In this document: piece by piece, positions 29,967 through 36,333 of the stretch | How the letters are laid out: each line of letters opens with the position of its first letter | Numbering within the stretch: position 1 is the first letter of the stretch | Assembly: GCA_028825445.1 (NCBI GenBank) | Contig: JAPKAD010000015.1 | Span: forward strand, 1 to 49,014 | Source of the DNA: Octadecabacter sp. | GTDB lineage: Bacteria; Pseudomonadota; Alphaproteobacteria; Rhodobacterales; Rhodobacteraceae | Reading direction: 5' to 3' | Length of the DNA: 49,014 nt | Position numbers and translations under genes: made by a program | Notes under the pieces: generated by a model | Told to the model about the DNA's origin: nothing | What the model saw: the letters and a program-made list of their open reading frames with translations, nothing else | Database searches by the model: none

Positions 29967-31415
29967 ATGTTTGATATGATGCGCTTTACGTCTTACCTAA
30001 TCGCCGCTCTCTTGATGGCAACACCTGCGTTAGCGCAATCTGTTCAAACCAAACAATACGACGACGGCGGCATTTATGAAGGGCAATTTTTAGGTGGCTT
30101 ACAACACGGCCAAGGTACCTACACTCTACCCAATGGCTACCAATACGAAGGCGAATGGTTTGAAGGTGAAATTCGTGGGAATGGTGTAGCACAGTTTCCC
30201 AACGGATCACTATATAAAGGAGAGTTTGAAGCCGGGAAGCCCGAAGGTTCTGGCCTAATCAACTTCGCGGATGGCGGTTCTTACGAAGGCGACTGGCTCG
30301 ATGGGAAAATCACTGGACGCGGCATCGCGCGCTATGCCAATGGCGTCGTCTATGAAGGTGACTTTCGAAATGCGATGCATCATGGTCAAGGCACCATGAC
30401 CAGCCTAGGCGGTTATATCTACGCAGGCACGTGGCTAAACGGCGTCAAAGAAGGCGAAGGATCCATTACTTATCCGGACGGTGCACTTTATGTTGGCTCA
30501 CTTGTTAGTGGCAAACGCCAAGGCATGGGTAGTCTTACCATGCCAGACGGCTTGGTTTATGAAGGTACATGGGCTGCTGGCCAAATTGAGGGCACAGGCC
30601 GATTAATTCAACCTAACGGTGATATTTACGAAGGCAATCTTGTTGCAGGCCAACGCCAAGGTCTAGGCACAGTAACCTATGCAAACAGTGACGTTTACAC
30701 CGGAAACTTTAAGAACGACTTGCGAAACGGTAACGGCACATTCACCAGTGTAGGCGGCTACAACTACACTGGTGAATGGGTTGACGGCCAGAACGAAGGC
30801 AACGGCGAAGTCACCTATCCAGACGGTTCCACCTATGTGGGAAACTTTGTAAGCGACCTCGCCCAAGGTAAGGGCATCATTACTTACCCCGATGGCTCCA
30901 CTTATGAAGGTGGCTGGGAGGCTGGCGTCATCAACGGGTTCGGCATCGCAGCTTATGCTAATGGAATTGTCTATGAAGGTGAATTTCTAAACGCAAAGAA
31001 TCATGGCACCGGCACGATGCGGTACGTGGACGGTTACACCTATGTCGGCACTTGGGAAGAAGGGCAGCGCAGCGGTTTTGGAACCGCAACCTATGCAGAT
31101 AGCACTATTTACGAAGGGGAGTTCCTAAACGGCCAACGCAACGGGACTGGCAAAATAATAATGTCCGATGGTTTTATTTACCAAGGCCAATGGTCCGCGG
31201 GTGAAATTGCAGGTACCGGCACCGCTACCTATACCAACGGTGATACCTACAACGGTGAATTCCGCTCAGGTCGACGCCAAGGGAGTGGTACCATGACATA
31301 CGCTTCTTCCGGTCAAGTCGCCGACGGTGAATGGCGAGACGGCGCACTGGTCGCACAGCGCACTGGAAGTCCAGCATTGGATGGTGCTGAGTCGGCAGAG
31401 CCTGCGACTGATTAA
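29967..31415 (+). CDS. Exported MORN-repeat protein
   Basis: This 482-aa protein starts with a Sec signal peptide (MRFTSYLIAALLMATPALAQ). The ATG may be 29967, 29976 or 29979. Nearly all the rest is MORN repeats of about 23 residues with the core Y-x-G-x-[FW]...G-x-G. I count 18 Y-x-G units plus a last degenerate one. Many units alternate between a GSxYEGxW form and a GVVYEGxF form, which suggests the array grew by duplication of a longer block. MORN arrays form extended beta-hairpin solenoids that bind lipids or proteins. The tail is short and has no anchor, so it is probably periplasmic or outer-membrane associated. The partner is unknown. Confidence 0.9.
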   Translation: MFDMMRFTSYLIAALLMATPALAQSVQTKQYDDGGIYEGQFLGGLQHGQGTYTLPNGYQYEGEWFEGEIRGNGVAQFPNGSLYKGEFEAGKPEGSGLINFADGGSYEGDWLDGKITGRGIARYANGVVYEGDFRNAMHHGQGTMTSLGGYIYAGTWLNGVKEGEGSITYPDGALYVGSLVSGKRQGMGSLTMPDGLVYEGTWAAGQIEGTGRLIQPNGDIYEGNLVAGQRQGLGTVTYANSDVYTGNFKNDLRNGNGTFTSVGGYNYTGEWVDGQNEGNGEVTYPDGSTYVGNFVSDLAQGKGIITYPDGSTYEGGWEAGVINGFGIAAYANGIVYEGEFLNAKNHGTGTMRYVDGYTYVGTWEEGQRSGFGTATYADSTIYEGEFLNGQRNGTGKIIMSDGFIYQGQWSAGEIAGTGTATYTNGDTYNGEFRSGRRQGSGTMTYASSGQVADGEWRDGALVAQRTGSPALDGAESAEPATD

Positions 31416-32459: not shown

Positions 32460-33116
32460 TCACCATGCAACTTCTATTCCCGCAAAATCAAAGAACCCAC
32501 CAGATTGACTGGTTTTTAATCCAAATAAAACGTCACATAAATTTGTGGCGGCTTCGGGCGCAGGTACCATTGCGTGACTCTTATAGTTAGCGGTAAAATT
32601 TGTCTCTACAGTACCTGGATGCAACGCCACAATTACCGCATCACGATGCTTGCGTCCCAGCTCAATCGCAGCGCCACGCACAATTTGGTTTGCTGCGGCT
32701 TTCGAAGCGCGATATGAATGCCACCCGCCAATCTTATTGTCACCAATCGATCCGACCCGCGCCGTCAAAACCCCGACAAAACAAGGCTTATTTCGTGGTA
32801 TTAACCGTTCCAGCTGCGCCAGTATCAAAGCGGGACCAATTGCATTTACCGCATAGATTTCACCCATTCGCTGTGCATCAATTGCCGCTAAAGATTTCTC
32901 CGGCACACCGCCAGCAGCCAACGTCCCAGTGGCTACAAAAATCACGTCGAATGGCCCGGTAAGTGCGCCCAAAACTTGCGTCACAGAATTCGGATCAGTC
33001 AAATCCAACCCATCTGCACGTGATAAACCAAAAACAGCGTAGCCGCGCGTATTTAGTTCCTGTGTTAGGGCAGACCCAAGCCCGCCTGAAGCGCCAATTA
33101 CTAATGCATTTTTCAT
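32460..33116 (-). CDS. Short-chain dehydrogenase/reductase (C-factor-like SDR)
   Basis: This 218-aa SDR has the NAD(P)-binding GASGGLG at residues 8-14 and the catalytic Tyr-x3-Lys as YRASK. The segment before the active-site Tyr reads GVLTARVGSIGDNKIGGWHS, in which S and T supply the usual hydroxyl. The segment after it, ALHPGTVETNF, matches CsgA/C-factor-like SDRs of about 220-240 aa. No partner gene is near, so the substrate is unknown. It is followed by eroded DNA and preceded by the leuA control region, divergently. Confidence 0.88.
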   Translation of the reverse strand: MKNALVIGASGGLGSALTQELNTRGYAVFGLSRADGLDLTDPNSVTQVLGALTGPFDVIFVATGTLAAGGVPEKSLAAIDAQRMGEIYAVNAIGPALILAQLERLIPRNKPCFVGVLTARVGSIGDNKIGGWHSYRASKAAANQIVRGAAIELGRKHRDAVIVALHPGTVETNFTANYKSHAMVPAPEAATNLCDVLFGLKTSQSGGFFDFAGIEVAW

Positions 33117-33296
33117 GAAATATATTTAACCCAAACACAGCATTAGTCCAACGAACTTTTTCTCAAAGGTATTTTAAAAGCCAAAAATTATGCACAATTT
33201 TTTTAATACCGGATAGATATAGATGTAGTCACACAGGATATAACCTTGGTCAAAACACCCAACGCAACACAACTGCACATTTTACCAACTATTCTC

Positions 33297-33324
33297 TTTT
33301 CAAAATGTCGTATGTGCGTATAGT
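33297..33324 (+). promoter_or_regulatory. Predicted promoter of the leu leader-leuA transcript
   Basis: The -35 candidate is TTTTCA (33297-33302), then a 16-bp spacer, then a -10 of TATAGT (33319-33324, 5 of 6 to consensus). Transcription should start 6-7 bases later, at the A residues 33330-33331, which is the first base of the leader peptide ATG. The leader message would therefore have no 5' untranslated region. Confidence 0.5.
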
Positions 33325-33330
33325 GATTAA

Positions 33331-33384
33331 ATGTTACGAAATCCATCTCAGGCCCTTCTCGGCCTCCTCCTTAGTCGCCTCTGA
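33331..33384 (+). CDS. Leucine-rich leader peptide of leuA
   Basis: The ORF is 17 codons: MLRNPSQALLGLLLSRL, then TGA. Seven of 17 residues are leucine (codons TTA, CTT, CTC, CTC, CTC, CTT, CTC), including runs LL and LLL, just 75 bp before leuA. This is the pattern of an amino-acid attenuator leader whose ribosome stalls when charged tRNA-Leu is scarce. No Shine-Dalgarno precedes the ATG, and the predicted transcription start coincides with it. It is therefore likely translated as a leaderless message, as known for the trpL leader of Sinorhizobium. The stop codon lies inside a perfect 10-bp hairpin. Confidence 0.85.
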   Translation: MLRNPSQALLGLLLSRL

Positions 33385-33440
33385 GCGTGCCCTTCGGCGC
33401 GACCGCTCAGAGGGTAAGACGCGCCAAAAAAGTCTAAGGA
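33362..33440 (+). promoter_or_regulatory. Leucine attenuator RNA structure before leuA
   Basis: CCTCTGAGCG (33378-33387), which contains the leader stop codon, pairs perfectly with CGCTCAGAGG (33404-33413). Within the loop GCC-CTTC-GGC forms a further small stem. An alternative pairing is possible between the leucine-codon stretch TCCTTAG (33368-33374) and CTAAGGA (33434-33440), close to the leuA ribosome site AGGGA (33445-33449). No run of T follows the main hairpin. A classical intrinsic terminator is therefore not evident, and control could be by Rho-dependent termination or by access of ribosomes to leuA. Confidence 0.65.
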
Positions 33441-33458
33441 AAACAGGGAATTATAAAA

Positions 33459-35018
33459 ATGGCCGATCATGTACTGATATTTGATACGACTCTCCGCGAT
33501 GGTGAACAATCTCCCGGTGCAACCATGACACACAACGAAAAAGTTGAAATCGCTGAAATGCTCGATGAAATGGGCGTTGACATCATCGAAGCAGGTTTCC
33601 CAATAGCGTCTGAGGGCGACTTCAACGCAGTGTCTGAAATTGCAAAGCGCAGCAAAACTGCGCAAATATGTGGCTTATCACGCGCAAACTTCAAAGATAT
33701 TGACCGCTGCTGGGAGGCTGTAAAACACAGTCAGCGCCCACGTATCCACACGTTCATCGGCACCTCGCCACTGCATCGCGCCATTCCTAACCTCGACATG
33801 GACGAAATGGCTAAACGTATTCACGACTGCGTAACACATGCCCGCAATTTGTGTGATAACGTCCAGTGGTCCAGTATGGATGCAACGCGTACAGAATGGG
33901 ATTTTCTGAAACGCACGGTCGATATTGCAATCAAGGCGGGTGCCACAACAATCAATATTCCTGACACTGTCGGCTATACCGAACCCGTAGAATCTGCCGA
34001 TCTGATTGCGCGCCTGATCGCCGAAGTAGATCGTGCCGATACAGTGGTTTTTTCAACCCATTGCCACAACGACCTCGGCATGGCGACCGCGAATTCGCTG
34101 GCTGCAGTTCAAGGCGGTGCACGCCAAGTTGAATGTACAATTAATGGCTTGGGTGAACGCGCGGGCAATACTGCGCTTGAAGAAGTGGTGATGGCACTGA
34201 AGGTCCGCAAGGACATCATGCCTTTCGAGACTAAGATTGACACACATAAGATTATGAACATCTCGCGCCGCGTTGCCACAGTTTCCGGCTTTCCAGTGCA
34301 GTTCAACAAGGCAATAGTCGGCAAAAATGCTTTTGCGCATGAATCAGGCATCCACCAAGACGGCATGCTGAAAAACCGCGAAACATTCGAGGTTATGCGC
34401 CCCGAGGACGTCGGTCTAGCTGGCACTACCTTGCCGCTGGGCAAACATTCGGGCCGCGCAGCTTTGCGTGCAAAACTTTCCGAGCTGGGCTTTGAAATGG
34501 GTGATAACGAACTTAAAGATGTGTTCGTTCGTTTTAAGGATTTGGCCGATCGCAAAAAAGAAGTTTTCGATGATGACCTGATCGCAATGGTCCGTCAGAA
34601 CAACACCGAAGATGATCATTTGAAGCTGAAAGACCTGACAGTTATCTGCGGCATGAACGGCCCGCAAAAGGCTGACATGGTTTTGGAGATTGATGGTAAA
34701 AACCACAGCACTTCTGCCACAGGCGATGGCCCTGTAGATGCAACGTTTAATGCAGTTAAAGCGCTGTTTGCACACGACGCCCACTTGCAGTTGTATCAGG
34801 TCCACGCTGTGACCGAAGGCACTGATGCGCAAGCAACAGTATCGGTCCGAATGGAAGAAGACGGACGCATTGCGACAGGTCAGTCTGCAGATACCGATAC
34901 TGTTGTGGCCTCCGCCAAAGCCTACATCAACGCGCTGAACCGCCTGCTGGTACGGCGCGAAAAAACTGCGCCAGGGGTGGATACTCCAGAAATTCGTTAC
35001 ACAGATGCAGGCGAGTAA
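33459..35018 (+). CDS. leuA: 2-isopropylmalate synthase
   Basis: This 519-aa LeuA condenses 2-oxoisovalerate with acetyl-CoA, the committed step of leucine synthesis. The TIM-barrel start FDTTLRDGEQSPG carries the catalytic Arg-Asp. The metal site HCHND is at about residues 201-205, and NGLGERAGNTALEE is the second family signature. A complete C-terminal LeuA dimerisation domain (about 370-505) implies feedback inhibition by leucine. The ribosome site AGGGA lies 9 bases before ATG 33459. The leucine-rich leader just upstream gives a second level of control by leucyl-tRNA charging. Other leu genes are not in the window. Confidence 0.97.
   Translation: MADHVLIFDTTLRDGEQSPGATMTHNEKVEIAEMLDEMGVDIIEAGFPIASEGDFNAVSEIAKRSKTAQICGLSRANFKDIDRCWEAVKHSQRPRIHTFIGTSPLHRAIPNLDMDEMAKRIHDCVTHARNLCDNVQWSSMDATRTEWDFLKRTVDIAIKAGATTINIPDTVGYTEPVESADLIARLIAEVDRADTVVFSTHCHNDLGMATANSLAAVQGGARQVECTINGLGERAGNTALEEVVMALKVRKDIMPFETKIDTHKIMNISRRVATVSGFPVQFNKAIVGKNAFAHESGIHQDGMLKNRETFEVMRPEDVGLAGTTLPLGKHSGRAALRAKLSELGFEMGDNELKDVFVRFKDLADRKKEVFDDDLIAMVRQNNTEDDHLKLKDLTVICGMNGPQKADMVLEIDGKNHSTSATGDGPVDATFNAVKALFAHDAHLQLYQVHAVTEGTDAQATVSVRMEEDGRIATGQSADTDTVVASAKAYINALNRLLVRREKTAPGVDTPEIRYTDAGE

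Positions 35019-35280: not shown

Positions 35281-36333
<1,053 letters not shown>

Follow-up and report, generated by a model that had tools for sequence, protein, structure and literature searches.

The leuA gene in the 49,014-nucleotide stretch of Octadecabacter sp. DNA analysed here (hereafter the window) is preceded by an element that is probably a ribosome-operated attenuator of leuA translation, leaderless and laid out like the LEU element of Actinobacteria; its parts, their conservation and their covariation were observed. Judging from the comparison with related genomes, the element is real, conserved and almost certainly functional. It is very likely that the leader of leuA senses leucine, and likely that control is exerted at the level of translation rather than through Rho. 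The LEU element was described in 2005 as a leucine uORF followed by a pseudoknot, a base stem joining the leucine codons to the leuA Shine-Dalgarno sequence, and an alternative hairpin (Seliverstov et al. 2005, PMC1262725), and its mechanism is contested. What is new is that an element of this poorly understood actinobacterial kind occurs in Alphaproteobacteria, where it has a leaderless-type promoter and the stop codon of its leader lies inside the hairpin that we call P2.

The leader peptide ORF (positions 33331-33384, forward strand; MLRNPSQALLGLLLSRL followed by the stop) has 17 codons, seven of which specify leucine, and is probably leaderless. The gene located 3' of the element (33459-35018, forward strand) is leuA, coding for a 2-isopropylmalate synthase that scores above the TIGR00973 cut-off; its start lies 74 nt after the leader stop, and CAGGGA (33444-33449, forward strand) is, from its position, its probable Shine-Dalgarno sequence. 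The putative promoter (33297-33324, forward strand) consists of TTTTCA (33297-33302), which is only -35-like, a 16-nt spacer and a -10 box TATAGT (33319-33324) ending 6 nt before the leader ATG at 33331. It is indicated by a promoter scan, which returned two sites against a mean of 1.0 in shuffled sequences, and by the spacing of the -10 box in the relatives.

These relatives were gathered by scanning GTDB genomes with LeuA; the best 80 of at least 595 confirmed ones were kept, and they belong mostly to the Rhodobacteraceae and their near kin, with a few Rhizobiales. One locus (L073), whose contig begins inside leuA, was dropped, and in 78 of the 79 usable loci from these best 80 of at least 595 a leucine-rich frame runs into a hairpin holding its stop codon upstream of leuA, the hairpin being recognised by a TGAG[CGT]G stop no more than 1450 nt upstream of the gene. 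Among the 78, a single mismatch had to be allowed in three loci (L066, L076 and L079), and it is doubtful whether the right arm was taken in L081. Directly before the stop, the leader peptides read, for example, LLLLSRL, LLLLTRL, LLILIRL or LLLLTLR. The sole locus of the 79 without a leucine-run ORF plus hairpin is L067, upstream of whose leuA a MORN-like reading frame was seen by eye. In the window, a MORN-repeat protein with nine matched stretches and, by eye, a signal-like N-terminus is encoded at 29967-31415, and mreB (PF06723) lies 3' of leuA at 35296-36333.

The position of the -10 box recurs in these leaders. When 75 sequences from the best 80 of at least 595 were scored strictly, a TAnnnT box was found 5-9 nt before an in-frame ATG in 49 of them; out-of-frame frames gave 5 of 150. 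A Shine-Dalgarno-like 4-mer is missing from all of these 49 leaders. By eye, many of the other 26 have TATAAA or TATAAC there, forms that the scoring penalises. The promoter spacing thus supports the idea that the mRNA starts at, or next to, the leader AUG and would therefore be leaderless. A CATATC-like string was also observed near codons 6-7 (13-18 nt beyond the A of the ATG) in 25 of these 49 leaders from the best 80, whose peptides often read ..HI.. there; it is absent from the leader of the window. It lies in one frame in 21 leaders and in other frames in four, so that any signal in it may reside in the DNA or RNA and not in the peptide.

P2 (33378-33413, forward strand) is a 10-bp hairpin pairing 33378-33387 with 33404-33413, supported by comparison and covariation, whose 5' arm contains the leader stop codon (33382-33384). 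The second pairing, P1, joins TCCTTAG (33368-33374, forward strand), which lies within the leucine codons, to CTAAGGA (33434-33440, forward strand). In the window the P1 duplex is 2.4 standard deviations better than those formed with dinucleotide-shuffled versions of its downstream stretch, and the fold of the whole leader as a single sequence is unremarkable (z -1.1); taken alone, the window thus offers modest evidence beyond chance, and it is the conservation among relatives that makes the element more than chance. Indeed, in 79 sequences (the 78 loci and the window, from the best 80 of at least 595), P1 strands pair with their own partners at -11.6 kcal/mol, compared with -8.7 kcal/mol when partners are permuted, and none of 10,000 permutations was as good. 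Against this, only 33 of these 79 have an own duplex that exceeds its shuffles by at least 2 standard deviations.

Since kinship could aid such a test, an independent sample was drawn from 79 further alphaproteobacterial genomes; it consists of 80 LeuA loci above the TIGR00973 cut-off. In 45 of the 80 there is a perfect 7-bp stem that begins with CC[CT]CT and holds a stop after at least two leucines in nine residues. The reverse strand gave 6 of 80, a control count inflated by the hairpin, which differs little from its reverse complement; with three leucines and no CC[CT]CT condition, the counts were 31 forward and 1 reverse. P1 was then evaluated in 42 loci picked regardless of it, omitting one same-family locus and two with little downstream DNA. 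Own strands gave -11.2 kcal/mol against -9.2 kcal/mol for permuted ones (0 of 10,000 as good), although the own strand ranks first among the partners in only 9 of the 42.

Covariation points in the same direction. In an alignment of 79 rows fitted to the model described below (one row, the minus-strand match of L063, being an artefact of the palindromic stem), changes on both sides occur in six of eight P1 pairs and in 11 of 18 pairs overall, a result reached by none of 500 shuffles. In a MAFFT alignment of 34 chosen sequences, both-sides changes occupy 45 cells, compared with 13.5 in shuffles (0 of 500); counted by pairs, they are not outstanding (7 pairs against 5.4, 39 of 500 shuffles), and three of seven P1 pairs show them. 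Thus, the pairing of the leucine-codon run with a stretch near the leuA start is supported as a conserved and covarying feature across the aligned sequences. As to its place, the distance from the end of the P1 3' strand to the start codon has a median of 18 nt (quartiles 9-21) in the 59 of 75 sequences from the best 80 of at least 595 where P1 reaches -7 kcal/mol or better, the start codons being assigned by a script; by the same measure P1 is weak in the remaining 16. It comes within 5-8 nt of the start codon in, for example, L021 and L059. In the window, 18 nt separate the end of CTAAGGA from the ATG; as a Shine-Dalgarno-like string CAGGGA is better placed, so that P1 would lie just upstream of the likely ribosome site.

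Most of what an earlier note had read from the sequence of the window is borne out by these comparisons, namely the leucine-rich ORF before leuA, the leaderless start suggested by TATAGT, the stop codon inside a perfect stem and the pairing of TCCTTAG with CTAAGGA. The note had set this pairing next to the ribosome site of leuA: it does lie before the start of the gene, and it falls just upstream of the likely Shine-Dalgarno sequence, not on it. The note had missed the pseudoknot between the P2 loop and the 3' flank, and also the LEU-element layout.

In the window, the predicted pseudoknot joins GGCGCG in the P2 loop (33396-33401, forward strand) to CGCGCC 3' of P2 (33420-33425, forward strand). 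In all 75 sequences tested (74 loci from the best 80 of at least 595, plus the window, four more distant loci being omitted), a duplex can form between the stretch following P2 and the 3' side of its loop, the values ranging from -9.9 to -21.3 kcal/mol with at least five pairs (exactly five in L031, L034 and L080). Own partners are better than permuted ones in these 75 sequences (-15.4 against -13.5 kcal/mol, 0 of 5000), and the 5' side of the loop, used as a control, gave z 0.3. The pairing is preserved through changes, being GGCGCG/CGCGCC in the window, GGTGCG/CGCACC in L018 and CCGGGC/GCCCGG in Paracoccus (L058 and L059), and 79.6% of its cells are paired in the 34-sequence alignment. In 44 class-wide loci, a crude test gave the pseudoknot no support (z -0.95, 830 of 5000). 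The loop strand can alternatively pair inside the P2 loop, again better than permuted (z -5.1, 0 of 5000); for this apical pairing no both-sides change was found in the 34 sequences, and its covariation is not above that of shuffles.

The earlier note had also proposed a covariance search of leuA leaders. A covariance model of P1 and P2 (R1), built from 34 of the 79 sequences picked for clear pairing and including the window, was run on 385 alphaproteobacterial genomes and gave 24 matches at E no higher than 0.01, the window's own among them; 23 of the 24 stand before leuA, in two cases (L085 and L089) with a cupin gene between. The remaining match (L104), which is not before leuA, is false. 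Under these strict filters, 361 of the 385 genomes have no match. On the loci of the best 80 of at least 595 relatives, R1 matches 77 of the 80 on the forward strand, besides the window. A sample of 299 genomes from the whole phylum, part of which had been drawn before, gave 16 matches: the 14 that were checked all lie before leuA, one (G591) belongs to the same family and falls outside those 14, and one (G530, L198) is false. Within this sample R1 matches 14 of the 15 genomes of the same family, and the negative one (G536, L200) has, by eye, a leucine leader with a shorter, imperfect stem before leuA. Rfam returned no family match for the window, for its positions 33100-33600 under loose thresholds or for seven comparison loci; the best score for 33100-33600 had E 0.27 and was under the gathering score of its family. 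Our literature searches turned up no report of the element in Alphaproteobacteria; older attenuation surveys, such as that of Vitreschak et al. (2004) and later work by the groups of Gelfand and Lyubetsky, could include some alphaproteobacterial leuA leaders.

How the element might act can be outlined as follows. Transcription would begin at or beside the leader AUG, as the promoter spacing suggests, giving a leaderless mRNA. With plentiful leucine, the ribosome would pass the leucine codons and depart; once it is gone, P2, the pseudoknot between loop and 3' flank, and the closing stem P1 would form, and P1, by joining the leucine codons to the stretch just before the leuA start, would keep leuA translation low. 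With scarce leucine, the ribosome would stall on the leucine codons and cover the 5' strand of P1, so that P1 would be held open and leuA translated.

The element is not a textbook transcription attenuator, because terminator-like sites are missing from positions 33120-33520 of the window and T-rich stretches are rare, one being found right after P2 in 1 of 79 sequences and anywhere up to leuA in 4 of 79 (from the best 80 of at least 595). The earlier note had left two outputs side by side, Rho-dependent termination and access to the ribosome site, and the covarying P1 near the start codon favours the latter. According to the Rho hypothesis, the same leucine-stalling leader would lead to Rho-dependent termination between the leader stop and leuA: with the ribosome gone, Rho would terminate, provided that its loading site is not masked by the fold or by a stalled ribosome. 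The absence of an intrinsic terminator in an element that must nevertheless switch speaks for it, and the idea was raised in PMC1262725 for terminator-less actinobacterial cys leaders. A ribosome-mask calculation, based on a nested fold that cannot hold the pseudoknot and on an assumed 30-nt footprint, bears on both outputs. In that pseudoknot-blind model, a ribosome stalled at the earlier leucine codons of the window, its A site 27, 24 or 18 nt ahead of the stop codon, increases the unpaired fraction of the ribosome site from 0.60 to 0.72 and leaves P2 formed (0.89), which speaks for access to that site. At later leucine codons or at the stop codon P2 is lost and the site is just as open, at 0.72 to 0.78 (0.74 at the stop codon), which speaks against it. 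Over 45 leaders, the same pseudoknot-blind model gives an openness of 0.56 to 0.58 in all states, including that with no ribosome, with no clear difference; openness exceeded that of the free leader in 22 to 27 of the 45 at three earlier stalls and in 21 and 23 at two later ones. The nested-fold model therefore yields no clear family-wide opening of the ribosome site, which is in keeping with the Rho hypothesis. Against Rho, the gap from stop to leuA is short (those 74 nt in the window) and structured, and a model based on Rho does not need a covarying P1 near the start codon across the class. Moreover, where a cupin gene is inserted, P1 follows the nearest start codon. Overall, we consider termination by Rho unlikely, though it is the strongest of the competing explanations.

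The inserted gene just mentioned codes for 117-118 residues and lies between the element and leuA in L011 (1072-1428), L021 (1123-1476) and L036 (1130-1486), and also in L085 and L089 (reverse strand); it is a Pfam Cupin_2 in both cases scanned (L011 and L036). In L011, L021 and L036, P1 pairs just before the start of the cupin gene, which could thus perhaps be controlled by leucine together with leuA.

A different possibility is that a protein, not the ribosome, reads the pseudoknot, the leucine run being a by-product of the pairing with a Shine-Dalgarno-like strand. The strong structural conservation, pseudoknot included, fits this idea, and a protein-bound element is what the authors of the LEU element favoured for Actinobacteria in 2005 (PMC1262725); in the experiments on Streptomyces coelicolor related there, changes of the leucine codons did not act as classical attenuation requires (PMC1262725). 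Yet several features speak against a protein reader: the in-frame start with its leaderless promoter is kept (the 49 of 75 against 5 of 150 given above for the best 80 of at least 595), the leucine codons reach beyond the P1 strand, and the leader varies in length while the leucine run stays beside P2. We therefore regard it as rather improbable, more so than termination by Rho. It is more improbable still, to the point of being very doubtful, that the leader, once released, acts in trans as a small RNA or peptide, like rnTrpL/peTrpL of Sinorhizobium. The leaderless start resembles that of trpL, and the N-terminal codons are partly conserved in relatives; on the other hand, the conserved N-terminal motif is missing from the window, no terminator that would release an RNA was seen, and no target was indicated by any test made here. 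The suggestion of the earlier note that the leader RNA acts elsewhere thus found nothing in its favour. An attenuator worked by the ribosome at the level of leuA translation remains the preferred reading.

Classical transcription attenuators of leu, ilv and trp operons are represented in Rfam by Leu_leader and the like; from these the present element differs in having no terminator hairpin with a U-tract and no Rfam match. By its promoter spacing, its leader ORF is leaderless as in the rnTrpL type. With the LEU element as described in PMC1262725 it shares leuA, the uORF with a leucine run, the pseudoknot, the base stem, perhaps the alternative hairpin, and the absence of a terminator. It differs in the position of the stop codon, which lies in the 5' arm of P2 here and in the P2 loop in five actinobacterial leaders, in the place of P1, often just upstream of the Shine-Dalgarno sequence, and in belonging to another phylum and to another LeuA family (TIGR00973 here). 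The leuA leader LeuL1 of Streptomyces lividans (MRFGLLLLSCRGEGL) is reported in PMC8079986 to be leaderless, with a leucine run and no Rho-independent terminator; it was found by transcript mapping. The leuA leader of Corynebacterium glutamicum is reported to have four leucine codons (PMC4046766). The leaderless polycysteine uORF attenuators of mycobacterial cys operons (Canestrari et al. 2020, as described in PMC9031893 and PMC13236596) also have a leaderless uORF in which the sensed codon is repeated, and their control of the downstream gene is translational; they differ in sensing cysteine, in the genes controlled and in that no pseudoknot is named in the passages describing them in these two sources.

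Seven actinobacterial leuA-type loci were read, and five of them (Nonomuraea, Microbacterium, two Tsukamurella and Nocardia; L206-L209 and L214) have a leucine leader, for example MLRGLLLSCRGGGL or MQFGLLLLSCRDESSD followed by the stop. An 11-12 bp stem comes right after the leucine run in these five, and its loop can pair with the 3' flank; taken singly, the loop/flank duplex passes the 5% shuffle level in two of the five and the base stem in none. No leucine-run leader was found in two Streptomyces plasmid copies (L210 and L213), L213 having only a 40-codon ORF far upstream. The string CTTCTTAGCTGCC, 13 nt long, is identical in Nonomuraea, Microbacterium, Afipia (L079) and Bradyrhizobium (L081); this string and the shared order of parts are suggestive of a common descent of the alphaproteobacterial and actinobacterial elements, the stretch being too short for a tree. 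In the plasmid-borne leuA of Sinorhizobium meliloti and Rhizobium leguminosarum, a leucine leader occurs together with a loop/flank pairing GAGGAGC/GCTCCTC, matched by 26 of 200 and 5 of 200 shuffles, respectively; the base stem of the S. meliloti locus is unsupported (196 of 200 shuffles as good). These Rhizobiaceae plasmid loci (L211, 375-500, and L212, 346-471) have a LeuA of another type and a 41-residue leader with a leucine run besides the loop/flank pairing, and TATAGG or TATAAG stands 7 nt before their ATG.

On this basis we tentatively speculate, holding it possible but short of probable, that one ancient, pseudoknotted and leaderless leucine attenuator, spread by descent or by transfer and operated by the stalled or terminating ribosome like a mechanical latch upon the pseudoknot, guards leuA in both Alphaproteobacteria and Actinobacteria, even where their LeuA families differ. 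If this idea were correct, a leucine attenuator shared by two phyla would represent a widespread class of translation-level attenuators that is absent from Rfam. Since a LEU-like layout is present in the tractable Rhodobacteraceae, the choice between reading by the ribosome, by Rho or by a protein becomes directly testable. The analysis also provides a covariance model for an RNA element unmatched in Rfam, and a means of flagging the hidden leader gene that precedes leuA in many marine and soil bacteria.
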